Assembly: GCF_037203705.1 (NCBI RefSeq)
Contig: NZ_JBBCAT010000001.1
Span: 1,709,418-1,773,417, forward strand
Length of the DNA: 64,000 nucleotides
Source of the DNA: Prosthecomicrobium sp. N25
GTDB taxonomy: Bacteria; Pseudomonadota; Alphaproteobacteria; Rhizobiales; Ancalomicrobiaceae
Reading direction: 5' to 3'
Below the pieces are notes generated by a model. It had not been told where the DNA came from and searched no databases. It was given only the letters and a program-made list of their open reading frames with translations. The position numbers and the translations under genes were made by a program. Positions 2,801-35,243 of this stretch are shown here, in pieces. Positions within the stretch are counted from its first letter, which is position 1. Each line of letters begins with the position of its first letter.

Positions 2801-3883
2801 ATGTCGGCAACGGACGAGTCGCCCTCGAAGGCGGCGGAATTCGAGCGCGTGGCCGCCCAGGTGCAAACCGGCGTGGCCAACTTCGCGGAGGACAGGCCGA
2901 CGCTCGTCAAGCGTCTGCAACACCTCCTCCACATGCATCCGACACTCATCCCGGCGATCGTTCTCCTGATCGGCGTGGCGATCTTCTCGACCATTGTCGG
3001 CGAGCGCTTCCTGCACCCCTTCAACTTCTCGCTGGTCCTCCAGCAGGTGACGATCATCGGCGTCATCGGCGTCGCCCAGACGATCATCATCCTGACCGCC
3101 GGCATCGACCTCTCGGTCGGCGCCATCATGGTCCTCTGCTCGGTGGTGATGGGCAAGCTCGCCGTCGGCGCCGGCCTGCCGGCCCCGGTCGCGATCCTGG
3201 CCGGCCTCGGCGTCGGCGCGATCTGCGGCGGCATCAACGGCCTGCTCGTCACCCGCTTCCGTCTGCCGCCCTTCATCGTCACCCTCGGCACCTGGAACAT
3301 CTTCTTCGCGCTCAACCTCTGGTACTCCGAGAGCGAGACGATCCGCGCCGCCGACGTGGAGGCGGAGGCGCCGCTCCTGCAGGTCTTCGCCACCTCGATC
3401 GACTTCTTCGGCATGCGGCTGACCGCCGGCTCTGTGGCCATGATCCTGCTCGTGCTGCTGTTCTGGTACGTGCTCAACCACACCCCCTGGGGCCGCCACG
3501 TGCATGCCGTCGGCGACGACCCCGACGCCGCCCGCCTCGCCGGTATCCGCACCGACCGGGTCCTGATGTCGGTCTATGTGGTCGCCGGCGTCGTCTGCGC
3601 CTTCGCGGCCTGGGTCCTGATCGGCCGCATCGGCTCGGTCAGCCCGCAGGCCGGCCAGACCGCCAACCTCGACTCGATCACCGCCGTGGTGATCGGCGGC
3701 ACCTCGCTCTTCGGCGGACGCGGATCGATCATCGGCACGCTCTTCGGCGCGCTCATCGTCGGCATCTTCCGCAACGGCCTGGCGCTCTCGGGCGTCAACG
3801 TGCTCTGGCAGGAATTCGCCGTCGGCGTCCTCATCATCGTCGCCGTCGCTCTCGACCAGTGGCTCCGGAGGGTTTCCCAGTGA
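2801..3883 (+). CDS. frcC: Sugar ABC transporter permease FrcC
   Basis: Inner-membrane permease of the RbsC/FrcC family, 360 aa. A hydrophilic N-terminal stretch of about 50 residues precedes roughly ten membrane segments, beginning IPAIVLLIGVAIFSTIV. The family hallmark ILTAGIDLSVGAIM is present near residues 98-111 and VIGGTSLFGGRGSIIGT near residues 294-310. AGGAGGAAG stands 5-6 nt upstream of the ATG. The stop overlaps the GTG start of frcA (GTGA), so permease and ATPase are translationally coupled. Confidence 0.92.
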   Translation: MSATDESPSKAAEFERVAAQVQTGVANFAEDRPTLVKRLQHLLHMHPTLIPAIVLLIGVAIFSTIVGERFLHPFNFSLVLQQVTIIGVIGVAQTIIILTAGIDLSVGAIMVLCSVVMGKLAVGAGLPAPVAILAGLGVGAICGGINGLLVTRFRLPPFIVTLGTWNIFFALNLWYSESETIRAADVEAEAPLLQVFATSIDFFGMRLTAGSVAMILLVLLFWYVLNHTPWGRHVHAVGDDPDAARLAGIRTDRVLMSVYVVAGVVCAFAAWVLIGRIGSVSPQAGQTANLDSITAVVIGGTSLFGGRGSIIGTLFGALIVGIFRNGLALSGVNVLWQEFAVGVLIIVAVALDQWLRRVSQ

Positions 3884-4665
3884 CCAGCTCGGCCCCCATT
3901 CTCCAGGCCCGCGGCCTCGTCAAGCGCTACGGCCGCGTCACCGCCCTCGACCATGCCGACTTCGACCTCTACCCGGGCGAGATCCTCGCGGTCATCGGCG
4001 ACAACGGCGCGGGCAAGTCGTCGCTCATCAAGGCCCTGACCGGCGCCATCACGCCCGACCACGGCGAGATCACCTTCGACGGCGAGGCCGTCCAGTTCAC
4101 CAACCCGCTCGACGCCCGCAAGGCGGGCATCGAGACCGTCTACCAGAACCTCGCGCTGTCCCCCGCGCTGTCGATCGCCGACAACCTGTTCCTCGGCCGC
4201 GAGCCGCTGGCGCCGGGCGTGCTCGGCCAGTGGTTCCACAAGCTCGACCGCTCGCGCATGCGGCGGGAGGCCCGCCAGGCGCTCTCCTCCCTCGGCCTGA
4301 TGACCATCCAGAACATCGACCAGCCGGTCGAAACCCTGTCGGGCGGTCAGCGCCAGGGCGTCGCCATCGCGCGCGCCGCCGCCTTCGGCAGCCGTGTGGT
4401 CATCATGGACGAGCCGACCGCCGCCCTCGGCGTCAAGGAGAGCCGCAAGGTGCTGGAACTGATCCTGGACGTGAAGCGCAAGGGCCTGCCGATCGTCCTG
4501 ATCAGCCACAACATGCCGCATGTCTTCGAGGTCGCCGACCGGATCCACATCCACCGCCTGGGCCGCCGCCACGCCGTGGTCGACCCCAAGGCGATCTCCA
4601 TGTCGGACGCCGTCGCCATCATGACCGGCGCCATGGCGCCGCCGGCGGGTGCCACGCTGCAGTGA
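3880..4665 (+). CDS. frcA: Sugar ABC transporter ATP-binding protein FrcA
   Basis: Single-domain ABC ATPase of 261 aa that powers FrcBC. Walker A is GDNGAGKSS (residues 40-48), the signature is LSGGQRQGVAIARA, and Walker B is VVIMDEPTAA. Unlike RbsA or MglA it has only one nucleotide-binding domain, as in FrcA. I chose GTG 3880, which overlaps the frcC stop and follows GGAGGG; an upstream in-frame ATG at 3859 would add seven residues inside frcC without a ribosome site. No sugar kinase (frcK) follows, unlike the S. meliloti operon; the next gene is convergent. Confidence 0.9.
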   Translation: MTSSAPILQARGLVKRYGRVTALDHADFDLYPGEILAVIGDNGAGKSSLIKALTGAITPDHGEITFDGEAVQFTNPLDARKAGIETVYQNLALSPALSIADNLFLGREPLAPGVLGQWFHKLDRSRMRREARQALSSLGLMTIQNIDQPVETLSGGQRQGVAIARAAAFGSRVVIMDEPTAALGVKESRKVLELILDVKRKGLPIVLISHNMPHVFEVADRIHIHRLGRRHAVVDPKAISMSDAVAIMTGAMAPPAGATLQ

Positions 4666-23682: not shown

Positions 23683-23798
23683 CCGGCCGCCGAAGTCGCC
23701 GCCTCCCGCCTGTCCGGCCCCTGTGCTAGTCTGGTTCGGGCATCTCGGTGCGAAGGTTCTGTTCCTCGACCGGCAGGGGCCCCCATGGGCGGGCGACC

Positions 23799-25523
23799 AT
23801 GAAGCGGCGGCTGAGCGCGGTCCTTGCGCTGGACGTGGTGGGCTCGTCGCGCCTGATCCAGGCTGACGAAAGCGGCGCGTTGCGCGCGATCAGGGCGGTC
23901 TTCGACACGATCGTCGGTCCGGCGGTGACCCGGCATTCCGGTCGCACGGTGAAGACGATGGGCGACGGGGCGCTGATCGAGTTCGGGAGCCCCGTCGAAG
24001 CCGTGCTTGCGGCCGTAGAAACCCAGACCACGATGGCGACGTGGGGCGGCACCCCGGCGATCGTGCTGCGCATCGGCATCAACATGGGCGACGTGGCGGT
24101 CGACGACGACGGCGACATCTTCGGCGACAGCGTCAACGTTGCGGCGAGACTTCAGGAAGTCGCCGATCCCGGCGGCCTGTGCGTCTCCGACAAGGTCTTC
24201 AATGAACTGGAGGGCAAGCTGGCGCTCCCCTTCGAGGACGGCGGCGAACGGCAGCTCAAGAACATCGCGCGGCAGATCCGGGTCTACCGCCTGAAACCCG
24301 GGGCCGCCTCCACGGACGAGCCGAAGTCGGTCCGGCCGAGCCTCGACAGGGGCGACCGCCCGTCCATCGCCGTCCTGCCTTTCGCCAATCTGAGCGGGGA
24401 CCCGGAGCAGGAATATCTGGCCGACGGCATCGCGGACGATGTCACCACCGCACTCGCCCGGTCACGCTGGCTCTTCGTGATGTCGCGGAATTCGTCCTTC
24501 GCCTTCAGGGGCCGCGCGATGCTGACCGACGAGATCGCCCGTCTCCTCGGTGTCCGCTACGTCCTGACCGGAAGTCTGCGGCGCAGCGGCTCGCGCCTGC
24601 GCATTTCGGCCCAGCTCATCGAGGCCGAGACCGGCGGCTCGATCTGGGCGGAGCGCTACGACCGCGACATGGGCGACCTGTTCGCCTTGCAGGACGAGAT
24701 CACGGAGGCGGTGGCGGGGGCCATCGAGCCGGAACTCCTGAAGAAGGAGGGCCAGCGCGGCGCCGACCGTCCGCGCAGCCTGACGGCCTGGGACCTGGTG
24801 CGCCGCGGCATGTGGGAGTTCCACAAGATCCGGCCTGAGACGCACTGGACGGCACTGGACCTGTTCCGCGAGGCGACCCGCAGCGCCCCCGAATTCGCCG
24901 ACGGCTTCTTTTGGGCGAGCCGCGCCGCCACCGGCATCGCCGCCTACGGTTGGACCGAGAAGCCCGGCCTCCTGCTGGACGAAGCCTTGGCGACTGCAAC
25001 GCGCGCGATCCAGTTGGACGAGCGGAATCCGTATGCCCACTACGCCCTGGGCATAGCCGAGCTCTTCAGGGGGGCCACCGACAAGGGCCTTGCGGCCGCC
25101 CGCCGCGCCGTCGCGCTGAACCCGAGCTTCGCCCTCGGCTATTTCGTCCTGGGCATGGCCGAACTCCAGTCGGGTCGCGCTCTCGAGGGGGCACACGCCC
25201 TGGAACACGGGTTGAGGCTATCGCCCTTCGATCCGCAGAACTTCACCTGGTCGGTGTTTCTCGCGCTCGCCTACTGCTTCTCGGGCGACCCCGCCAAGGG
25301 GCTGGACGATGCCCGACGGGCGCTCGTGCTGCGACCGGGGTGGCCCGCCGCACTCGCCGCCGTCGCCCTCTGCTCGTCCGCCCTGGAGGATCGGGAGGGC
25401 GCGCGGACGGCCGCGAAGGCGCTGCGAAACACCTCCGAGGCCGAGATCAACCCGGTGCGCTCCATTGTCCGTTGCCTGCCCGACTGGTCGGCTGCCCTCG
25501 ACAGGGCGCTGAACGTCGATTGA
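23799..25523 (+). CDS. Class III adenylate/guanylate cyclase with TolB-like and TPR domains
   Basis: Cytoplasmic signalling protein of 574 aa. The N-terminal cyclase domain has metal-binding Asp12 (LALDVVGSSRL) and Asp56 (KTMGDGALIEF), Lys52 for base contact, and Asn113/Arg116 (VNVAARL) for the transition state, so it looks catalytic. Residues ~185-310 match the TolB-like segment of such cyclases (IAVLPFANLSGDPEQEYLAD, TGSLRRSGSRLRISAQLIEA). TPR-type helices follow (NPYAHYALGIAELFRG, NPSFALGYFVLGMAELQSG). An upstream GTG at 23748 is possible, but the family starts at MKRRLSAVLALDVVG. No adjacent partner reveals the input signal. Confidence 0.86.
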   Translation: MKRRLSAVLALDVVGSSRLIQADESGALRAIRAVFDTIVGPAVTRHSGRTVKTMGDGALIEFGSPVEAVLAAVETQTTMATWGGTPAIVLRIGINMGDVAVDDDGDIFGDSVNVAARLQEVADPGGLCVSDKVFNELEGKLALPFEDGGERQLKNIARQIRVYRLKPGAASTDEPKSVRPSLDRGDRPSIAVLPFANLSGDPEQEYLADGIADDVTTALARSRWLFVMSRNSSFAFRGRAMLTDEIARLLGVRYVLTGSLRRSGSRLRISAQLIEAETGGSIWAERYDRDMGDLFALQDEITEAVAGAIEPELLKKEGQRGADRPRSLTAWDLVRRGMWEFHKIRPETHWTALDLFREATRSAPEFADGFFWASRAATGIAAYGWTEKPGLLLDEALATATRAIQLDERNPYAHYALGIAELFRGATDKGLAAARRAVALNPSFALGYFVLGMAELQSGRALEGAHALEHGLRLSPFDPQNFTWSVFLALAYCFSGDPAKGLDDARRALVLRPGWPAALAAVALCSSALEDREGARTAAKALRNTSEAEINPVRSIVRCLPDWSAALDRALNVD

Positions 25524-25600: not shown

Positions 25601-26419
25601 TCAGTCGAGCAGGCGCTGGACGATCCCCAGGAGGCCCGGCGACCGAAGGGCCTGCTTGATCGCGTCGGCCCAGATCGGGCCGATGGCGCGCTCGTCGAGA
25701 TGATGGTCGAGCGGGTTGGCGGGCCTCACCGCGTCCCTGACCGCGCCGGTCGCCGGATCGGTCCAATGCGGTCGCAGGTCGAGGAAGTCGTAGCCCCGGG
25801 TCCGGCAGCCCTCGGCCATCCGGGCGTTGAAGCGCTCGGTGAGGTCCAGGCGGTCGGGGTAGGGGACGGTCAGCCAGCGCCGCTCCGCGGCCAGCGCCCG
25901 GCCTAGATCCTCCGTCACGACGGTCGGCGGCGGCGCCGAGCCGACCAGGATGCGGCGGTACCCCGCCGCCGCGACCGACTCCAGGAACGCGAGATAGCGG
26001 CCGACCGACCGGGCGAGCGCATCCTCTACCGTCATGCCGCCTTGATGGGCCTTGAGCCAGATCGTACTGCCGCAGTCGACCTCGCCCATCAGGAAGAACG
26101 GCACCCTGCGCGGCCGGAAGGGCAGGAGCGCCGCGCGGAACCGGGCGGCCGCCTGCGTGCGCGAACCGGAATTGGCGAGGCCCATGCAGGAGGCGCTGGT
26201 CACCACCGTGGCACGGCAGGTCCGGTAGCCGAAGTGGCCGGCCTTGTAGGCCTTCCAAACCGATGCCACGTGGCTGTCGCCGCAGATGACCACCTCGTCC
26301 AGGAGCGGCGGCAGCAGCCGCCCGACACGCTGCCGCCAGGGGTGCTTTCCCTTGACCTGCCAGCGGACCCGCTCCGCGTGCTCGGGCGGCGGCTGCCCGG
26401 ACCGTTCCGCCGTCGACAT
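25601..26419 (-). CDS. SGNH/GDSL-fold hydrolase-like protein
   Basis: A 272-aa soluble protein without a signal peptide. VVICGDSHVASVWKAYKAG gives the block I Ser49, FFLMGEVDCGSTIWLKAH a conserved mid-domain block, and NPLDHHLDE near residue 235 the Asp/His block, as in SGNH esterases that trim sugar or cell-surface acyl groups. GAGGAGCAGG precedes the ATG. It follows the giant kinase gene on the same strand after 58 bp and could be co-transcribed. Substrate unknown. Confidence 0.72.
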   Translation of the reverse strand: MSTAERSGQPPPEHAERVRWQVKGKHPWRQRVGRLLPPLLDEVVICGDSHVASVWKAYKAGHFGYRTCRATVVTSASCMGLANSGSRTQAAARFRAALLPFRPRRVPFFLMGEVDCGSTIWLKAHQGGMTVEDALARSVGRYLAFLESVAAAGYRRILVGSAPPPTVVTEDLGRALAAERRWLTVPYPDRLDLTERFNARMAEGCRTRGYDFLDLRPHWTDPATGAVRDAVRPANPLDHHLDERAIGPIWADAIKQALRSPGLLGIVQRLLD

Positions 26420-26477
26420 GCGTCCTGCTCCTCGCCCCGGCGGCTCGGCCGGGGGCTCTACACCAAGCGGCCAGCGC

Positions 26478-29400
26478 TCAGCAGCGGCTCGCCGCGCAGT
26501 TGGACGTGGGGTTGTTGTAGGCCGGGGGCGGCGGCTGCCGGACGACGCGCGGCTCCACCGGCGCCACCGGCGCGGTCCGCACGGTCGTGGTCGGCGGGGG
26601 CCGGATCACGGCCGGCGGCTCCTCGTCGGGCGGCCGCACGCGGCGCGTCCGGGCCGGCGGCTCGCGCGTCGCAGGCGGCTCGCGCGTCGCCGGCCGATCG
26701 GCCTTGTCGCCGCGATCGGTCTTGTCCGGCCGGTCCACGGGCGTCTTCACGATCGGCGCGTCGACGGCCTTGGGCGGGTCCACCTCGTGGTCGACCGACA
26801 GCCCCGGCGGCAGCGCCGCCACCTCGAGGGCGTCCTGCAGCCGCTTGTAGGTGTCCGGGCTCCGCGCCACGCCGGTCACCTTGAGCGTGCCGTCGCTGAC
26901 CACCACGGAGCCTTCCGAGAGCTCCGCCACCCGCTCGGCCGCGAAGGTCGCCGCCGCCCGGAAGTCGAAGCCGGCGCCGGCGGCGATGCGCGTCTCGTCG
27001 TTGAGATCGAAGCCCTTCGGCAGGGCGGCGCGCAGCACGTCGGCGACGCGCCGCCGCTCGTCCTCGCTCGGGACGTAGCCGGTCAGACGCAGCCGGTTGC
27101 GCTCGAGCCTGGCGGTCCAGGTGAAGGGGGCGACCGTCGCCGGCTTCACGTCGAGCCGCGCCTTGGCCCCGCCCGGCAGCGATCCGCCGAGGTCCTGGAG
27201 CAGCGCCTGGTGGGCCTCGGGGGTCGCCGCGGTGCCGTCGAGGGCCACGCTGCCGTCCACGATCGAGACCGTGCCGCTTTCCAGCCGCTGGGCCTGGGTG
27301 ACCGCGATGCGGACGATGTCGCCGAAGCGGTCGGGCGCCCCGTCCCCGACGAGCAACTCGTCGCTGACCTTCCAGCCGCCGACCGCGCCCGCCGAGGCGA
27401 GGAGGTCGCGCCGGGCCTGCTCGGAGGGCATGTAGCCGGAGATCTTCACCTCGCCGCCGCGCTTCACCAGTTGCCACGTGTAGGGCGCCACCACGGGTGC
27501 GTTGGCGCTGAAGCGGGAGACCCGGAAGGTGCCCGGCAGGGCCGCCTGCAGGGTCGCGCGCTTCAGCCCGTCGAAGCTGTCGGGCGCCGCACCCTGGCCC
27601 TCCAGCGTCACGGACCGGTCGGACAGCACGATGCGCCCGCGCGCCAGCCGCGGCACCTGGTCGAGCGCCACCTTGGCGGCGGCCACGAAATCGGCCGGCG
27701 CCCCGTCCGCGATCCGGCTGTCGTCCCGGACGGTCCGTCCCGCGGCGGCCGTGCCGGCCGCGGCCGCGATCTCCCGCCGCGCCTCCTCGGAGGGCACCAC
27801 GCCCGTGAGCGTGACCGTCCCGCCATCGACCAGCACCGACCAGTCGAAGGGCGAGACCACCGGGGGCTTCAGCGCGAAGGCCATGCGGGCGCCGCCCGGC
27901 ACCGCGTCCCGGCTCGCCGCCGCCGCCCCCGCATAGGCCTCCGTGCTGCGCGCGCGGCCCTCGATCCTGAGGTCCGCATCCGCGATCGAGACCCGCCCCT
28001 CCGCCATCTCGGCGAGCCGCTGCAGGCCGAAGCGGGCGGTCTCCGCAAAGCCGGCCGGGGCGCCGCGCGCCACCTTCAGGTCGTCCGAAACCGAAGCGTT
28101 GGCGCCGGCGCGCCGCGCCTGGTCGATAAGGGGCTGGCGCAGGTCCTCGCTCGGGATGTAGCCCGCGAGGCGGACCCGGTTGCCGGTCACGTCGGCGCTG
28201 AACACGTAGGGGGCCACCGTCGCGGGCGTGATCACGCTGCGCGCCACGCTCGTGCCCGCCGCCGGCTTGCCGAGGTCCCGCTGCAGGGCGATGTGCATGT
28301 CGGGCGTGGCCGCCGTGCCCTCGATCGAGAGCGCCGTGTCCTCGTAGGCCGCCGTGCCGGTCGTCAGCCGTGCCGCCTGGGTCAGCGCGTAGCGGATCAT
28401 GGGAAGGAAGGCGTCCGGGGCGCCGTCGCCGATCATCAGCTCGTCGCGCACCGCCGTCGCGCCGAAGACGCCGGCCGCCGCCTGCATGACGTCCCGCCGC
28501 GCCTGGTCGTTCGGTGCGAAGCCGGCGATCCGCGCCTGGCCCCGGTCGACCGTGACGGACCAGGCGTAGGGCGAGATGCGCGGCGGGTCGACCGCGATCC
28601 GGGCGAGGCGGTAGCCGGCCGGCAGCGTGCCGGCCGCGGCGCGGCGCAGGTCGTCGTAGTCGACCGGACCCGCCGCCAGGCCCTCCACCGACAGCCCCTG
28701 GTCGCGCAGCAGCGCACGGCCGCGCTGCAGGTGCCGCGCCTGATCGGCGAGGTGGCGCACGGCGGCTGCGAAGTCCGCCGGCGCGCCGTCGGCCACCCGC
28801 GTCTCGTCCTTCAGCGTGCGCCCGGCGATTGCCTGCCCGGCGATCCGCGCCGCCTCCGCCTTCGCCTCCGCGCTCGGCGCGAAGCCGGAGAGCACCACCG
28901 ACTGCGGGTCCACGACGATCGCCCATTCGAAGGGGCTCGCGACCGCGGGCCGAACCTCCGAGACGAGGCTGCCGCCCGCCGGCACCGGGTCCCGGTCGCG
29001 CGCCACGACCTGCTGGTAGGCCTCGTGGCTGCGGGCGCGGCCTTCGAGCCGCAGCGCCGCGCCGTTCAACGTGGCGCGGCCTTCGGCAAGGTCGGTCAGG
29101 CGGCCGGCCGCATAGCCGGCGAGGTCGGCGAAACCGGATGGCGCCCCCGCCGCCACGAGGCTCTGGTCGGTGACCGTGGCGGCCGGCTGGGCGCGCTTCA
29201 GCGCCTCGACGACCTGGCTGCGCACCTCTTCGCTCGGCACGTATCCGCCGATCCGGATCCGTCCCTGGCCGAATTCGGCCGACCAGCCATAGGGCGCCAC
29301 GGTCGCGGGCACGAAGGCGGCGAGCCGCGGGGCCACCCCGGGGGCGAGCTTGCCGAGATCGCGCAGGGTCGCCGCATAGGCCTCCGGATTGGCCGCGGTG

Positions 29401-31976
29401 CCCTCAAGCGCGAGGCTGGCATCCTCGATCGCCACCCGCCCGCCCGCGAGCCGCGGGATCTGGCCGAGCGCGAGTCGCGCGGTCTGCAGGAAGCCGGCGG
29501 GCGCGCCCTCGCCGATCATCATCTCGTCTTCGATCTTGAGCCCGGGCGCGGCCTCGCGCGCGGCGGCGACCACCTCCTGCCGCGCCGCCTCGCCCGGCAC
29601 GAAGCCGGTCAGCCGCAGGCTGCCCATGGCCGAGGTCGCCACCCAGGGATAGGGCGAGATGCGCGGTGCCCCGATCGTGTTGCGCTCGACGACGAAGCCC
29701 GGCGGCAGCTTGTCGGGCGCGAGTGCCGCCGTCAGGGCCATGAAGGATTCCGGGCTCGCGATCTGGCCGTCGAAGGCGAGCGTCCGGCCCGACAGCGAGA
29801 CGCGACCCCGAGCGATGTGCGGCACCTGCTCGAGCGCGAAACGCGCCGCGCGACGGAATTCCGGCGGCTCGCCATCCGCGATGCGGGTGTCGTCCCGCAA
29901 CGCCCGCCCGCCCGCCACCTGGCCGGCGGCGGTCGCGAGGTCGGACTTCGCCTCGTCGGAGGGCACGAACCCGGTCAGCGCGACCGTGTCCCCGTCGATC
30001 GTAATCGCGAAGTCGAACGGCTGCACCAGCGGCGCCCGGATCTGGGCCGTGACCTGTCCGCCCTGGACCGTCGCCGCCTTCAGCGCCGCGAAGCTCTCCG
30101 GGCTGCGGGCCCTGCCTTCGATCGCGACGGTCGTCCCGGACACGGACACGCGGCCGAGGGACAGGCCGGCGAGCCGGTCGATCGCGAAGCCGGCGAGGTC
30201 CTCGAAGCCGGCCGGCGCGCCGCCTGCCACGCGCGTGTCGTCCTGGACGGACTGGCCCGCGAAGGCACGCCGGGCCGTATCGATGAGCCGCGTCCGCGTG
30301 CCGTCGTCCGGGACGTAGCCGCCGAGCACGACCCGGCCGGGCTCCAGCTCGGCCACGAAGGTGAACGGCACGATCTCGGCCGGCCGGACCGCGAGGCGGT
30401 TGCGCCAGTTGCCGGGCAGGGGGCGTCCGAAGTCGCGTTGCAGCGCCCGGTAGCTCTCCGGCGTCGCCGCCGTCCCCTCGATGGCGACGTCCGGTCCCTC
30501 GATCTTGACCGAACCGCTGGCGAGGCCCGCGAGGCCGCCGGTCGCCAGGCGGACCATCTCGACATAGTCGGGCGGGGCGCCGTCGGCGACCCGGATCTGG
30601 TTGACGATCTGGGCGCCGGGAAGAGCGCGCGCGATGCTCTCCTGGATGAGCTGGCGGTCGCCTTCGGACGGGGCGAAGCCGGAGAGCTTGACGCTGCTCC
30701 CGTCCCGAACCGCCTGGAGGCCGTAGGCGCCCGGGGCCGGTCCCGCATCCGGCGCGGGCCCGCGCGGGGCGACCATCGCCCAGTAGACGGCGCCCGCGGC
30801 GACGATGAGTGCCACCAGGACGGCCGCGATCGCCGCGAACGATCCGCGCCGCGGCGCCCCCTCGGACGCCCCGGCGGCGGCCGGCGCGGCGGACGGCCGG
30901 GCGCCGCCGGTGACCACGGAGCCCGTGTCCGCGCGGCCGGCCCCGGTCATCTGGCTCGGCCGTTCGACCCGCGAAGCGGTCACGGCCCGGGCAGAACTGA
31001 CCGAGAAGCTGATCGTGCGGCTCGGATCGTCCGGCGCCGGGAGGCTCTCAACCGCCGGTTCGGCGGCCCAGCCCAGCGCGGCCCTCAGTTCGCCGATCGA
31101 CTGCGGCCGTTCCTCCTCGTCGAGACGGAGCGCGCGGTCGATCCCGTCGAGGAAGCGTGCCGAATATCGGTTCGGCTGCAGCGCCGCGTCCGCGGCCGGG
31201 ACATAGGGGTCGGTCCCTGTCCCGGCGCGCCGCCCGAGGCGCATCACCCGGGTCACGGACGCGATCGGCGGGCTGCCCGCGACCGCCCGGTACAGGACGG
31301 CCCCGAGCGAGTAGATGTCGGTGTAGCGCCCGTGCTGCCCCGGACCGTCCGAATCGGTCTGCTCCGGCGGGGCGTAGCGCATCTGCGCGACCATCTTGGA
31401 CGAGCGGTCCCGATCGATTCCCTGGCCGGCCGCGCCGAAATCGATGAGCACCGGGTCGCCGCTCGGCCGGATCATGATGTTGCGGGGCGTCAGGTCCCGG
31501 TGCATCGTGTTCCGGTCGTGGACATAGTCCACGGCCTCGAAGACCTTCTCGAACAGGAAGCGCAGCTCGTCCTCGGACGGCGGTGTCCCCCGCGCCGTGA
31601 GCCACTGCTCGAAATTCGCCCCCTCGACATACTCCATGACGAGGTAGCAGGTGTTGTTCCAGCGGATGAAGTTCTCGCCGCGGATGATGTACGGATGCTG
31701 GAAGCGGTTGACGACCGCCTTCGCCTCTTCCTGGAACTTCTGCAGCGCGTACTCGTAGGTCCCTTCGCTGACGGCGGTGTCGACCACCACGGTCGCGCCC
31801 GTGCGCGAGGAGATGTCGCGGACGTAGAATTCCTTGATCGCCACCGTCTTGTGGGTGACGTCATTGAACCCCTTGTAAGTGATGCCGAATCCGCCCGCGC
31901 CCAGGATCTCCGTGATCCTGTAGCCGGCCACCTCCGTTCCGATGTCGAGGGCGTAGGGGTACCGCGGGTCTTTCAT
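26478..31976 (-). CDS. Giant Ser/Thr protein kinase with eleven periplasmic BON-like repeats
   Basis: A 1,832-aa membrane protein. Residues 20-300 are a Hanks-type kinase: Gly loop LGAGGFGITYKG (25-36), Lys48 (VAIKEFY), acidic alphaC FQEEAK (81-86), catalytic loop HRDLTPRN (159-166; Thr replaces the usual Lys after HRDL), DFG (179-181) and APPEQ. A low-complexity linker leads to one membrane helix (about 380-402). Outside lie eleven tandem repeats of 116-122 residues (417-1737), each with a GFVPSExxR half and a GAPxxF...IEGxAxxPExY half, like paired BON modules. The last 95 residues are Pro/Arg-rich and end CAASRC. It probably senses an envelope or outer-membrane cue and phosphorylates cytoplasmic proteins. 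Ribosome site AGGA is modest. Porin and SGNH genes flank it. Confidence 0.88.
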   Translation of the reverse strand: MKDPRYPYALDIGTEVAGYRITEILGAGGFGITYKGFNDVTHKTVAIKEFYVRDISSRTGATVVVDTAVSEGTYEYALQKFQEEAKAVVNRFQHPYIIRGENFIRWNNTCYLVMEYVEGANFEQWLTARGTPPSEDELRFLFEKVFEAVDYVHDRNTMHRDLTPRNIMIRPSGDPVLIDFGAAGQGIDRDRSSKMVAQMRYAPPEQTDSDGPGQHGRYTDIYSLGAVLYRAVAGSPPIASVTRVMRLGRRAGTGTDPYVPAADAALQPNRYSARFLDGIDRALRLDEEERPQSIGELRAALGWAAEPAVESLPAPDDPSRTISFSVSSARAVTASRVERPSQMTGAGRADTGSVVTGGARPSAAPAAAGASEGAPRRGSFAAIAAVLVALIVAAGAVYWAMVAPRGPAPDAGPAPGAYGLQAVRDGSSVKLSGFAPSEGDRQLIQESIARALPGAQIVNQIRVADGAPPDYVEMVRLATGGLAGLASGSVKIEGPDVAIEGTAATPESYRALQRDFGRPLPGNWRNRLAVRPAEIVPFTFVAELEPGRVVLGGYVPDDGTRTRLIDTARRAFAGQSVQDDTRVAGGAPAGFEDLAGFAIDRLAGLSLGRVSVSGTTVAIEGRARSPESFAALKAATVQGGQVTAQIRAPLVQPFDFAITIDGDTVALTGFVPSDEAKSDLATAAGQVAGGRALRDDTRIADGEPPEFRRAARFALEQVPHIARGRVSLSGRTLAFDGQIASPESFMALTAALAPDKLPPGFVVERNTIGAPRISPYPWVATSAMGSLRLTGFVPGEAARQEVVAAAREAAPGLKIEDEMMIGEGAPAGFLQTARLALGQIPRLAGGRVAIEDASLALEGTAANPEAYAATLRDLGKLAPGVAPRLAAFVPATVAPYGWSAEFGQGRIRIGGYVPSEEVRSQVVEALKRAQPAATVTDQSLVAAGAPSGFADLAGYAAGRLTDLAEGRATLNGAALRLEGRARSHEAYQQVVARDRDPVPAGGSLVSEVRPAVASPFEWAIVVDPQSVVLSGFAPSAEAKAEAARIAGQAIAGRTLKDETRVADGAPADFAAAVRHLADQARHLQRGRALLRDQGLSVEGLAAGPVDYDDLRRAAAGTLPAGYRLARIAVDPPRISPYAWSVTVDRGQARIAGFAPNDQARRDVMQAAAGVFGATAVRDELMIGDGAPDAFLPMIRYALTQAARLTTGTAAYEDTALSIEGTAATPDMHIALQRDLGKPAAGTSVARSVITPATVAPYVFSADVTGNRVRLAGYIPSEDLRQPLIDQARRAGANASVSDDLKVARGAPAGFAETARFGLQRLAEMAEGRVSIADADLRIEGRARSTEAYAGAAAASRDAVPGGARMAFALKPPVVSPFDWSVLVDGGTVTLTGVVPSEEARREIAAAAGTAAAGRTVRDDSRIADGAPADFVAAAKVALDQVPRLARGRIVLSDRSVTLEGQGAAPDSFDGLKRATLQAALPGTFRVSRFSANAPVVAPYTWQLVKRGGEVKISGYMPSEQARRDLLASAGAVGGWKVSDELLVGDGAPDRFGDIVRIAVTQAQRLESGTVSIVDGSVALDGTAATPEAHQALLQDLGGSLPGGAKARLDVKPATVAPFTWTARLERNRLRLTGYVPSEDERRRVADVLRAALPKGFDLNDETRIAAGAGFDFRAAATFAAERVAELSEGSVVVSDGTLKVTGVARSPDTYKRLQDALEVAALPPGLSVDHEVDPPKAVDAPIVKTPVDRPDKTDRGDKADRPATREPPATREPPARTRRVRPPDEEPPAVIRPPPTTTVRTAPVAPVEPRVVRQPPPPAYNNPTSNCAASRC
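26766..30728 (-). repeat. Eleven ~360-bp tandem repeats with a three-unit higher order
   Basis: Within the kinase gene, residues 417-1737 divide at recurring (A/S)P(Y/F) boundaries: 417-535, 536-651, 652-773, 774-893, 894-1013, 1014-1134, 1135-1254, 1255-1374, 1375-1496, 1497-1615, 1616-1737. Units 1,4,7,10 share GTAATPE and RDLGK-type ends (type A; 4, 7 and 10 also share a G(E/D)GAP turn). Units 2,5,8,11 share GRARSPE-like text (type B). Units 3,6,9 share ADGAPADF and ARGR (type C). The array is therefore (ABC)3AB with a period of about 1,080 bp. Confidence 0.85.
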
Positions 31977-32144
31977 TCAAAATCCTGATCAGAACCGGGC
32001 CCACTATGCCAGCAAAGGCCGCCCGTCGCCACACTGCCAGGGGTGTGCGCGCCAATCCAGACCGCCGCCGCTGAACCGGCGGTGAACGAATTCTCCGTCC
32101 GTCCTGGCCGGCCCGCCGCCCGGGAGTGCCGGCCCGTCCGGAGC

Positions 32145-32177
32145 AAAAAAGAAGGGACCGCGCGGGGCGGTCCCTTC
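32145..32177 (-). terminator. Rho-independent terminator after the porin gene
   Basis: An 11-bp perfect stem (32151-32161 with 32167-32177, GAAGGGACCGC and its complement) with loop of 5 nt is followed on the minus strand by a run of six T (32150-32145). It lies 23 bp past the porin stop, a textbook terminator. The gap from here to the kinase start (31977-32144) shows nothing else. Confidence 0.9.
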
Positions 32178-33741: not shown

Positions 33742-34662
33742 TCAGGTCGGCCGCGGGGGCGCGGGCAGGTAGCCCTGGCCGTGTTCGCGCAGGAAGGCCG
33801 CGAGCGCGCTCGGGGCCGGCAGCAGCCGCCGGTGCCGCAATTGGACCACGTACCAGGCCCTGAGGATGGGGAGACCCCTGACGTCGAGCACGACCAGTCG
33901 CCCGTCCCCGATCTCCGCCGCGATGGTATGGGCCGAGATGAACGCGATGCCGAGACCGGCCATCACCGCCTGCTTGATGGTCTCGTTCGATCCCATCTCC
34001 AGGCCGACCCGCGGCTGCAGCCCGTGGCCGGCGAAGAACCGCTCCATCAGGATCCGCGTCCCGGAGCCGGATTCGCGCAAGAGGAAGGTCTCGTCCGCCA
34101 GCGCCTCGGGCGCGAGGTCCCGGGCCGCCGCGAGCGGGTGGTCGGGCGGGGCGATGACCACGTGCGGATGCGGCCCGATCTCCGACAGCTCGACCTCCAG
34201 CTCGTCCGGCGGCCGTCCCATGATCGCCACGTCGACCGCGCCCTCCTTGAGCGCCGCGATGATCTCGCCCCGGTTGCCGATCGTGAGCTTCAGCTCCAGG
34301 CCCGGATGCGCCTTGAGGAAGTCGGCGAGCGCCCGCGGGGCGTAGTACTTGGCCGTCGAGATGACCCCGACCGAAACGACCCCGCGGCCGGCACTGCGCA
34401 GCGCCTCGAGCGCCCGCGTGCAGTCGGCCAGCGCCAGCTCGATCCGCTCCACGGTCGCCAGCACCTCCCGGCCGGCCTCTGTCAGCCGCAGCCCGTCGGC
34501 GAGCCGCTCGACCAGCGGCAGCCCGGCCGCCTCCTCGAGCTGGCGCATCTGGACGGTCACCGCCGGGGGGGTGAGATGCAGCGCCTCCGCCGCGCCCGCG
34601 AAGGAGCCGCTCCGCATCACGGCAGCCAGCGCGCGCAGCTGCTTGAGGGTGACGTGCCGCAT
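33742..34662 (-). CDS. cbbR: LysR-type regulator of the Calvin operon, CbbR
   Basis: A 306-aa LTTR with HTH residues 1-60 (VTLKQLRALAAVMRSGSFAG, then AEALHLTPPAVTVQMRQLEE) and a ligand domain with GVVSVGVISTAKYYAPRALA and VDVAIMGRPPDEL. These match CbbR, which senses reduced-carbon/redox metabolites and activates cbb genes. ATG 34662 follows GGAGCGGAGAG; a longer in-frame reading runs through the promoter region and is rejected. It is divergent from cbbS, the standard CbbR position. Confidence 0.9.
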   Translation of the reverse strand: MRHVTLKQLRALAAVMRSGSFAGAAEALHLTPPAVTVQMRQLEEAAGLPLVERLADGLRLTEAGREVLATVERIELALADCTRALEALRSAGRGVVSVGVISTAKYYAPRALADFLKAHPGLELKLTIGNRGEIIAALKEGAVDVAIMGRPPDELEVELSEIGPHPHVVIAPPDHPLAAARDLAPEALADETFLLRESGSGTRILMERFFAGHGLQPRVGLEMGSNETIKQAVMAGLGIAFISAHTIAAEIGDGRLVVLDVRGLPILRAWYVVQLRHRRLLPAPSALAAFLREHGQGYLPAPPRPT

Positions 34663-34697: not shown

Positions 34698-34823
34698 TAA
34701 TGCTTGGCCAAAATATCCCAAATTTACTTAAGCCGCACCGCGGCAGATGATCCTGGTTGCGGACAGCGTGTCGTCCGGGTGAGCGCCGCTCCCCGGCCCG
34801 GCCGGTCCGCAAGGGAGCGAAAC

Positions 34824-35243
34824 ATGAAAATCACCCAGGGCCTGTTCACCTTCCTGCCGGAGCTCACGGAGGACCAGATCCGCCGACAGGTCGAATACTG
34901 CCTCGCCAACGACTGGGTCATCAGCATCGACATGACCGACGAGATCGAGTCCCGCGCCACCTACTGGGAGTCCTGGGGCGACCACGACGTCGCCGCCGGA
35001 GGTGTGGCGGGCGTCATGGAGGCGATCCGGGTCTGCCGCAACGCCAACCCGCGCCACCACGTCCGCATCAGCGCCCATGATTCGAGCCGCGGCTTCGAGG
35101 AGGTCCGCCTCTCCTTCATCATCAACCGCCCGCGCGAGGCCTCGGTGTTCCGCATGGAGCGGCCCGAATTCGCCAACCGCGCGCCGCGCTACCGCGTCCA
35201 GCCGCCCGCCATGGAGCGCCGCTTCGGCGGCATGCGCGGCTGA
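34824..35243 (+). CDS. cbbS: Divergent RuBisCO small-subunit-like protein (CbbS)
   Basis: A 139-aa protein. MKITQGLFTFLPELTEDQI, QVEYCLANDW, TYWESWG, CRNANPRHH and SRGFEEVRLSFIINRP match red-type (form IC) small subunits. Two normally conserved stretches differ: the DDPHPRN-type loop reads DEIESRA (39-45) and the P-M-F-D segment after the WG reads DHDVAAGG (53-60). AAGGGAGCG gives the ribosome site. In known operons cbbL immediately precedes cbbS; here 161 bp of control region lies directly between cbbR and cbbS, and no cbbL is in the window. It may pair with a large subunit encoded elsewhere or be a diverging remnant. Confidence 0.82.
   Translation: MKITQGLFTFLPELTEDQIRRQVEYCLANDWVISIDMTDEIESRATYWESWGDHDVAAGGVAGVMEAIRVCRNANPRHHVRISAHDSSRGFEEVRLSFIINRPREASVFRMERPEFANRAPRYRVQPPAMERRFGGMRG

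Follow-up and report, generated by a model that had tools for sequence, protein, structure and literature searches.

A giant receptor-like kinase and its array of repeats

What could a bacterial receptor-like kinase sense with eleven tandem domains set behind a single membrane helix, and how did so long an array arise? These questions are raised by a 1,832-codon gene lying in a 64,000-bp stretch of DNA from Prosthecomicrobium sp. N25, the whole of which was analyzed and is referred to as the window in the rest of the text. The gene occupies positions 26478-31976 of the minus strand, with residue 1 at 31976; the first-pass annotation had described the same frame without giving its strand. A plus-strand open reading frame of 1900 codons (26286-31988) spans the entire kinase gene. 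The codon-position GC content of the minus-strand frame (0.74/0.55/0.94) shows that this is the real gene and that the overlapping 1900-aa frame is its antisense shadow, a by-product of the high-GC coding strand. No Rfam RNA was found near the kinase gene. The protein consists, in order, of a Hanks-type kinase domain, a linker, one membrane helix, 11 units and a 95-residue Pro/Arg tail, with the following features.

26478..31976, minus strand: whole gene, 1832 aa (kinase, transmembrane helix, 11 OmpATb-type units and tail)
31059..31976, minus strand: Hanks-type Ser/Thr kinase domain, PpkA-like, residues 1-306 (Pkinase 135 bits; 5hnv E 1e-40; intact catalytic motifs)
30843..31058, minus strand: cytoplasmic juxtamembrane linker, residues 307-378 (from sequence)
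30771..30842, minus strand: sole transmembrane helix, residues 379-402 (RR before the helix, N-in; hydropathy maximum 2.6)
30369..30728, minus strand: unit 1, type A, residues 417-536 (unit profile, trees)
30021..30368, minus strand: unit 2, type B, residues 537-652 (unit profile, trees)
29655..30020, minus strand: unit 3, type C, residues 653-774 (unit profile, trees)
29295..29654, minus strand: unit 4, type A, residues 775-894 (unit profile, trees)
28935..29294, minus strand: unit 5, type B, residues 895-1014 (unit profile, trees)
28572..28934, minus strand: unit 6, type C, residues 1015-1135 (unit profile, trees)
28212..28571, minus strand: unit 7, type A, residues 1136-1255 (unit profile, trees, AlphaFold with units 8-9)
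27852..28211, minus strand: unit 8, type B, residues 1256-1375 (unit profile, trees, AlphaFold)
27486..27851, minus strand: unit 9, type C, residues 1376-1497 (unit profile, trees, AlphaFold)
27129..27485, minus strand: unit 10, type A, residues 1498-1616 (unit profile, trees; most conserved between species, 62%)
26766..27128, minus strand: unit 11, type B by position, class less certain, residues 1617-1737 (unit profile, trees)
26481..26765, minus strand: Pro/Arg-rich disordered tail, residues 1738-1832, with a C-terminal C-x4-C (1827, 1832) (pLDDT about 40)

As the first-pass annotation had it, there is one membrane helix: hydropathy reaches 2.6 at residues 379-402, compared to 1.1 at its highest elsewhere in the protein, and RR stands ahead of the helix. 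Judging from this single N-in helix, the array is predicted to lie on the periplasmic side. The only cysteines of the periplasmic part (about 1,430 residues) are C1827 and C1832, within the last six residues. This C-x4-C pair, which may form a disulfide, is kept in the three genomes that carry the 11-unit form (the window, L047 and L048), the tail being otherwise variable. The 4-unit paralogues described below have exactly two periplasmic cysteines, which lie beyond the last unit at a distance of 33 residues from each other. No peptidoglycan-binding domain was recognized in the 11-unit protein, and its tail is predicted to be disordered.

Identity of the repeat units

The first-pass annotation had counted eleven BON-like repeats of 116-122 residues. 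Number and length were borne out: 11 units of 116-122 aa fill residues 417-1737, each fitting over near its full length a unit profile built from the same 11 units, in agreement with two independent, curated models, NF051434 and BON. NCBIfam NF051434 (ArfA/OmpATb N-terminal domain) matched 11 stretches with 273 bits (whole-protein cut-off 81; single units scored 24-43 bits, under that cut-off), and Pfam BON (PF04972) matched six stretches with 149 bits (cut-off 27). Against the PDB, a profile of the three-unit block retrieved only Rv0899/OmpATb (2kgs, 2ksm and 2l26, E = 5e-8 to 1e-7), with OsmY next at 0.016. phmmer with two units gave weak matches to the PDB; the OmpATb link came from the profile.

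The AlphaFold model of units 7-9 (pLDDT 92, pTM 0.79) shows two beta-beta-alpha-beta halves per unit. For this model Foldseek ranked 2kgs (OmpATb) first, and VIA-align placed the OmpATb entries 2kgs, 2ksm and 2l26 at the top (Z = 11.2, 10.4 and 9.2; next 5.8). Units 10-11 were predicted to have the same fold from an alignment of three sequences only. Since two half-modules are seen in each of the modeled units 7-11, the figure of about 22 proposed earlier is a fair extrapolation for the whole array. The label "BON-like" therefore stands for fold and family but can be made more specific: profile matches and models identify each unit as a complete OmpATb/Rv0899 B domain, that is, two BON halves. 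Like OmpATb, in which a membrane anchor is followed by the B domain (PMC6151718), the protein has a single anchor (helix 379-402) ahead of its B domains. A Pfam scan found no OmpA domain in the 11-unit protein, which, despite its OmpATb B domains, is not an ArfA protein.

The A-B-C order and its origin

The units had been proposed to follow the order A-B-C-A-B-C-A-B-C-A-B. In a tree of the 11 units, class A (units 1, 4, 7 and 10) and class B (2, 5, 8 and 11) received support values of 96/93 and 97/96, and class C (3, 6 and 9) of 59/68, rising to 93/83 and 98/87 once relatives joined the tree. Identity averaged 42% within classes (32-50) compared to 33% between classes (25-43), the best match of every unit was a unit of its own class, and the A/B/C labeling fitted the tree with the minimum number of changes, equaled by 1 of 200 shuffles. 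The tree and the identity averages thus recover the 1/4/7/10, 2/5/8/11 and 3/6/9 clustering on which the first-pass annotation had staked its order, the A and B positions being well supported and class C and unit 11 more weakly so. Unit 11 fell in class B in three trees and near classes C and D (see below) when distant OmpA-type units were included; placing it with D or with C instead of B was not rejected (p-AU 0.37 and 0.35). The class of units 1-10 is firm and unit 11 most probably belongs to class B.

Orthologues with 11 units were found in G001 and G002, making with the window three congeneric genomes, one of which is Prosthecomicrobium hirschii. In the tree, unit i groups with unit i of the other two genomes at all 11 positions, indicating that the whole 11-unit array is older than the split of the three species. 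Units of the window and P. hirschii share 45-62% identity. A recent expansion or an unstable copy number was rejected on the grounds of this positional orthology and of the lack of near-identical units (maximum 50%).

The 11-unit gene has company in its own genome, namely a 4-unit kinase paralogue (L016 5163-9575) that also occurs in G001, G002, G006, G007, G011 and G014, with 3 units detected in G006. In G007 the gene (L049 from about 7486) is split over frames, either as a pseudogene or through sequencing errors. The first three units of the paralogue belong to classes A, B and C and the fourth to a separate class, D; its tail holds nine Sel1 repeats and a PG_binding_1 match below threshold. 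The (ABC)3-A-B order supports the earlier proposal of growth by copying of a three-unit block, and the simplest history is that a four-unit A-B-C-D ancestor gave rise to the array when, in one paralogue, its A-B-C block was copied repeatedly. The kinase tree leaves the split of the paralogues unplaced relative to the age of the genus. Two kinase genes stand in tandem in the window's genome (L062 3142-8800), the first at least with a Sel1-like tail.

Relatives of the 11-unit kinase

A search with the single 11-unit protein found no related loci. In an alignment-based search, units occurred, among the best 80 of 551 related stretches, only in Ancalomicrobiaceae-type genomes; none of 26 kinase loci in a class-level sample (a few from the window's own genome) had units, and a search of plasmids gave one match, to the kinase only. 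The kinase-BON combination that the first-pass annotation had suggested seeking across Hyphomicrobiales was thus found in Ancalomicrobiaceae-type genomes, with 3-4 or 11 repeats.

OmpATb-type units were detected in 193 of 347 Hyphomicrobiales genomes (E 1e-6, few candidates being scored per genome). All but one of the 25 unit loci read code for non-kinase proteins with about 3-9 units, many of them anchored at the N-terminus; some show an OmpA motif, and the two scanned with Pfam both end in OmpA. Among 15 Ancalomicrobiaceae genomes searched with the kinase domain as the query, the kinase form is present in 7, none of which has the long OmpA form, and the OmpA form is present in 7 of the 8 others (OmpA ends recognized by eye, except in G005, by Pfam). 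This exclusion (Fisher p = 0.0014 for 15 genomes of 7 genera, relatedness ignored) suggests that the kinase form takes the place of the OmpA tether in Ancalomicrobiaceae; with so few genomes and independent lineages, we treat it as a lead. One-to-one inheritance of classes A, B, C and D from the OmpA-type proteins was unsupported, as their units fall mostly outside the kinase classes and root support is weak.

The kinase domain

The Pfam Pkinase model matches residues 19-292 with 135 bits. The motifs listed by the first-pass annotation in calling the protein a receptor-like Ser/Thr kinase are all present (GAGGFG at 26, AIKEFY at 46, HRDLTPRN at 159, DFG at 179 and PPEQ at 203) and are kept in every aligned relative (HRD[LI]TPRN). 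The Pkinase domain, the lysine, HRD, DFG and the glycine loop together place it among Hanks-type kinases, and from these motifs it is probably catalytically active. The domain is 76% identical between the window and P. hirschii. The nearest solved kinase structure is PpkA (5hnv, E = 1e-40; runner-up 9e-20). The periplasmic von Willebrand A domain that is a feature of Pseudomonas aeruginosa PpkA was absent from a Pfam scan of the 11-unit kinase. The identity of a PASTA kinase was rejected: Pfam found no PASTA domain, and the PknB_PASTA model scored 109 bits compared to a cut-off of 450. The statement that kinases of this subfamily carry varied tails proved apt, as Sel1, WD40-like and Cys-rich tails were found.

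A proposed envelope receptor

We propose that the protein is an inner-membrane receptor kinase in which a PpkA-like domain, a helix and 22 BON half-modules sense the envelope and signal by threonine phosphorylation, a reading to which we give a probability of about 0.5. Most likely, it would act on the envelope (peptidoglycan) as a tether or a sensor, with threonine phosphorylation as the coupled output. Here we infer both the ligand of the array and the FHA and PP2C partners of the kinase. The chain of eleven B domains would contact peptidoglycan or envelope lipids and proteins; the state of the array (occupancy, tension or clustering) would be passed through the helix to the kinase, which would autophosphorylate and then phosphorylate threonines read by FHA-domain proteins; and a PP2C phosphatase would reset the signal, in a pathway like PpkA-Fha-PppA but untied from type VI secretion. 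Contact with peptidoglycan or the envelope is suggested by the lineage of the units, which is one of membrane-anchored proteins often ending in an OmpA peptidoglycan-binding domain; recognized peptidoglycan-binding domains occur in relatives of the 11-unit protein only. The first-pass annotation had pictured a rod possibly reaching the outer membrane; a straight rod of that reach is speculative: by our estimate, eleven domains end to end probably exceed the width of the periplasm, and the tail is predicted to be disordered. A point against the proposal is that BON domains can bind phospholipid instead, as in DolP (PMC7806268).

The array could instead be mainly a structural tether or spacer, whose copy number sets length or multivalent grip, with a kinase that responds to or maintains envelope geometry in prosthecate cells. 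The same module is used in proteins made of an anchor, repeats and OmpA, and exactly 11 units were kept in three genomes while the units themselves diverged (those of the window and P. hirschii are 45-62% identical), a pattern suggestive of selection on length; P. hirschii also forms stalked cells of two distinct morphologies (PMC4653794). However, the 76% conservation of the kinase domain between species argues that signaling is not vestigial, and the 11-unit form lacks a peptidoglycan-binding end, so we consider a mainly structural role unlikely. More doubtful is a fuller scenario in which an OmpATb/OmpA tether turned kinase receptor replaced the tether in Ancalomicrobiaceae, its long multivalent A-B-C probe with the Cys pair reading spacing, tension or redox in appendage-forming cells and reporting by threonine phosphorylation.

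Genomic neighborhood

On the minus strand, the window has in order a cbbR-like regulator, a porin, the kinase and an SGNH-like protein, with these features upstream of the kinase.

33742..34662, minus strand: LysR-type, cbbR-like regulator gene of the Calvin-cycle block; lies upstream of the kinase gene in each of the three genomes
32151..32177, minus strand: intrinsic terminator, 11-bp stem, T6, between the porin and kinase genes (strong)

The plus strand, divergent from cbbR, codes for the small subunit of RuBisCO and a CbbX-like AAA protein (both recognized by Pfam, as was the porin), and for FBPase, phosphoribulokinase and transketolase (all three recognized by eye). In P. hirschii the kinase gene directly follows cbbR, and behind it come genes for a class II aldolase and a protein resembling ribulose-phosphate epimerase. 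A functional link to the porin, raised as a possibility by the first-pass annotation, was not supported: a strong terminator separates the two genes, and in P. hirschii no porin gene stands between the regulator gene and that of the kinase.

The position after a cbbR-like regulator in three genomes, together with the aldolase and epimerase-like genes of P. hirschii, could tie the kinase to the neighboring Calvin-cycle or carbon-metabolism genes, as a member of the cbbR regulon that reports envelope or nutrient state. However, the linkage is conserved among congeners only, which share synteny by descent; the terminator and the porin gene intervene in the window, the 4-unit paralogue lies outside such a context, and a true RuBisCO large subunit was not found in the genome. 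A tie to the Calvin-cycle genes is therefore improbable.

The small-subunit gene is itself an orphan in all three genomes (window 34779-35240, plus strand; L047 12305-12721; L048 12185-12601), standing beside cbbX, FBPase, phosphoribulokinase and transketolase genes but with no adjacent large-subunit gene, and the window copy lacks the PMFD stretch of the others. The one large-subunit-like match in the window's genome is weak (1e-57 compared to 1e-135 in the family's other genera) and is probably a RuBisCO-like protein. Between the small-subunit and transketolase genes of G002 only lies a 565-codon frame of very low GC, 35% at third positions (L048 13349-15046, plus strand), probably acquired DNA. 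Elsewhere in the window, downstream of a transport operon, 23748-25523 (plus strand) codes for an adenylate/guanylate-cyclase-like protein with a TPR-like tail (by eye).

FHA proteins, PP2C and type VI secretion

FHA matches number 5-9 in the kinase-bearing genomes compared to 0-1 in the others, and the FHA genes of the L181 cluster account for much of this difference. In that cluster, a related kinase of the same genome (L181 13380-17087) has as its neighbors a PP2C gene (L181 17502-18626) and four FHA genes. Its FHA and PP2C genes belong to another kinase, so that they bear indirectly on a partnership with the 11-unit kinase. The whole cluster (L181 5658-18626) comprises this third kinase type, with Cys-rich periplasmic repeats (by eye), the PP2C phosphatase, the four FHA proteins (one of which is a fusion with a flavoprotein-like part) and a transporter of the TauE type. 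Beside it lie Cas7-, Cas2- and Cas3-like genes (by eye; L181 147-4072 and L182 5416-7695) with repeats at 3791-4072, a probable type I-C CRISPR-Cas system.

A role in regulating type VI secretion, as a PpkA whose sensor was swapped, might be argued from PpkA being the nearest solved relative of the kinase and from a type VI sheath gene with an FHA gene nearby in the window's genome. However, two of the three genomes coding for the 11-unit form, P. hirschii included, gave no VipA/TssB match, which makes type VI secretion an unlikely output; moreover, the kinase gene (C1:1736000-1741000) is far from the sheath gene (C1:1056674) and adjoins no type VI gene. We hold this reading to be very improbable. 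Least credible of all is a role in defense against phages, as a PD-T4-6-type kinase whose tail is unusual: the PD-T4-6 and mad6 models that match the domain match kinase domains generally, and a periplasmic array at a conserved chromosomal position is ill-suited to a mobile defense gene.

Comparison with known systems

An envelope-sensing receptor kinase would belong to a known kind, and the new part is its OmpATb sensor array, for which we found no earlier report. Transmembrane Ser/Thr kinases with repeat sensors are represented by the PASTA kinases of Gram-positive bacteria and actinobacteria; to our knowledge, the input of few such sensors is known in Gram-negative bacteria. A 2011 study reportedly dealt with Rv0899-like proteins in nitrogen-fixing bacteria and could mention kinase fusions. 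Our search of the open-access literature found no kinase paired with OmpATb repeats, which agrees with the first-pass annotation that no such architecture had been described, although absence is not proof. A census of BON architectures sorts them into 12 clusters, all of them lacking a kinase, among which the BON+BON+OmpA cluster corresponds to the OmpA form (PMC7806268), and a 2025 paper on BON proteins covers up to three domains and does not mention a kinase (PMC11747388). The family joins a kinase to the OmpATb B domain, whose structure is solved and whose function is disputed, in natural unit numbers of 3-4 and 11 in related genomes. Together, the fusion and the natural unit numbers offer a way to study which partners the domain binds and whether reach or avidity depends on the number of repeats, and the 4-unit and 11-unit gene pair is present in P. 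hirschii, a sequenced, cultured and stalked organism.

The 4-unit paralogue has the same kinase, helix and A-B-C units but ends differently, in a D unit of separate class, nine Sel1 repeats and a region weakly matching PG_binding_1. The anchored proteins of Hyphomicrobiales share the tandem units (about 3-9), mostly behind one N-terminal anchor; however, they have no kinase, and those read over their whole length carry a peptidoglycan-binding OmpA domain at their end. OmpATb (ArfA/Rv0899) of Mycobacterium tuberculosis likewise has an anchor followed by the double-BON B domain of six strands and three helices, but it has one B domain, an OmpA-like C-terminal domain and no kinase, whereas the 11-unit protein has eleven B domains, a cytoplasmic kinase and no OmpA domain. 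PASTA kinases (PknB/StkP) offer an analogous layout of a kinase, one helix and a row of small extracytoplasmic repeats, from which the 11-unit kinase differs in having no PASTA domain. PpkA, of the type VI threonine-phosphorylation pathway, is the closest solved kinase domain, is membrane-associated and responds to periplasmic input, upon which it dimerizes, autophosphorylates and phosphorylates FHA-linked targets, PppA reversing the reaction (PMC10482370). The 11-unit kinase, in contrast, has neither the von Willebrand A domain nor a link to type VI secretion, and its predicted sensor is the OmpATb array.
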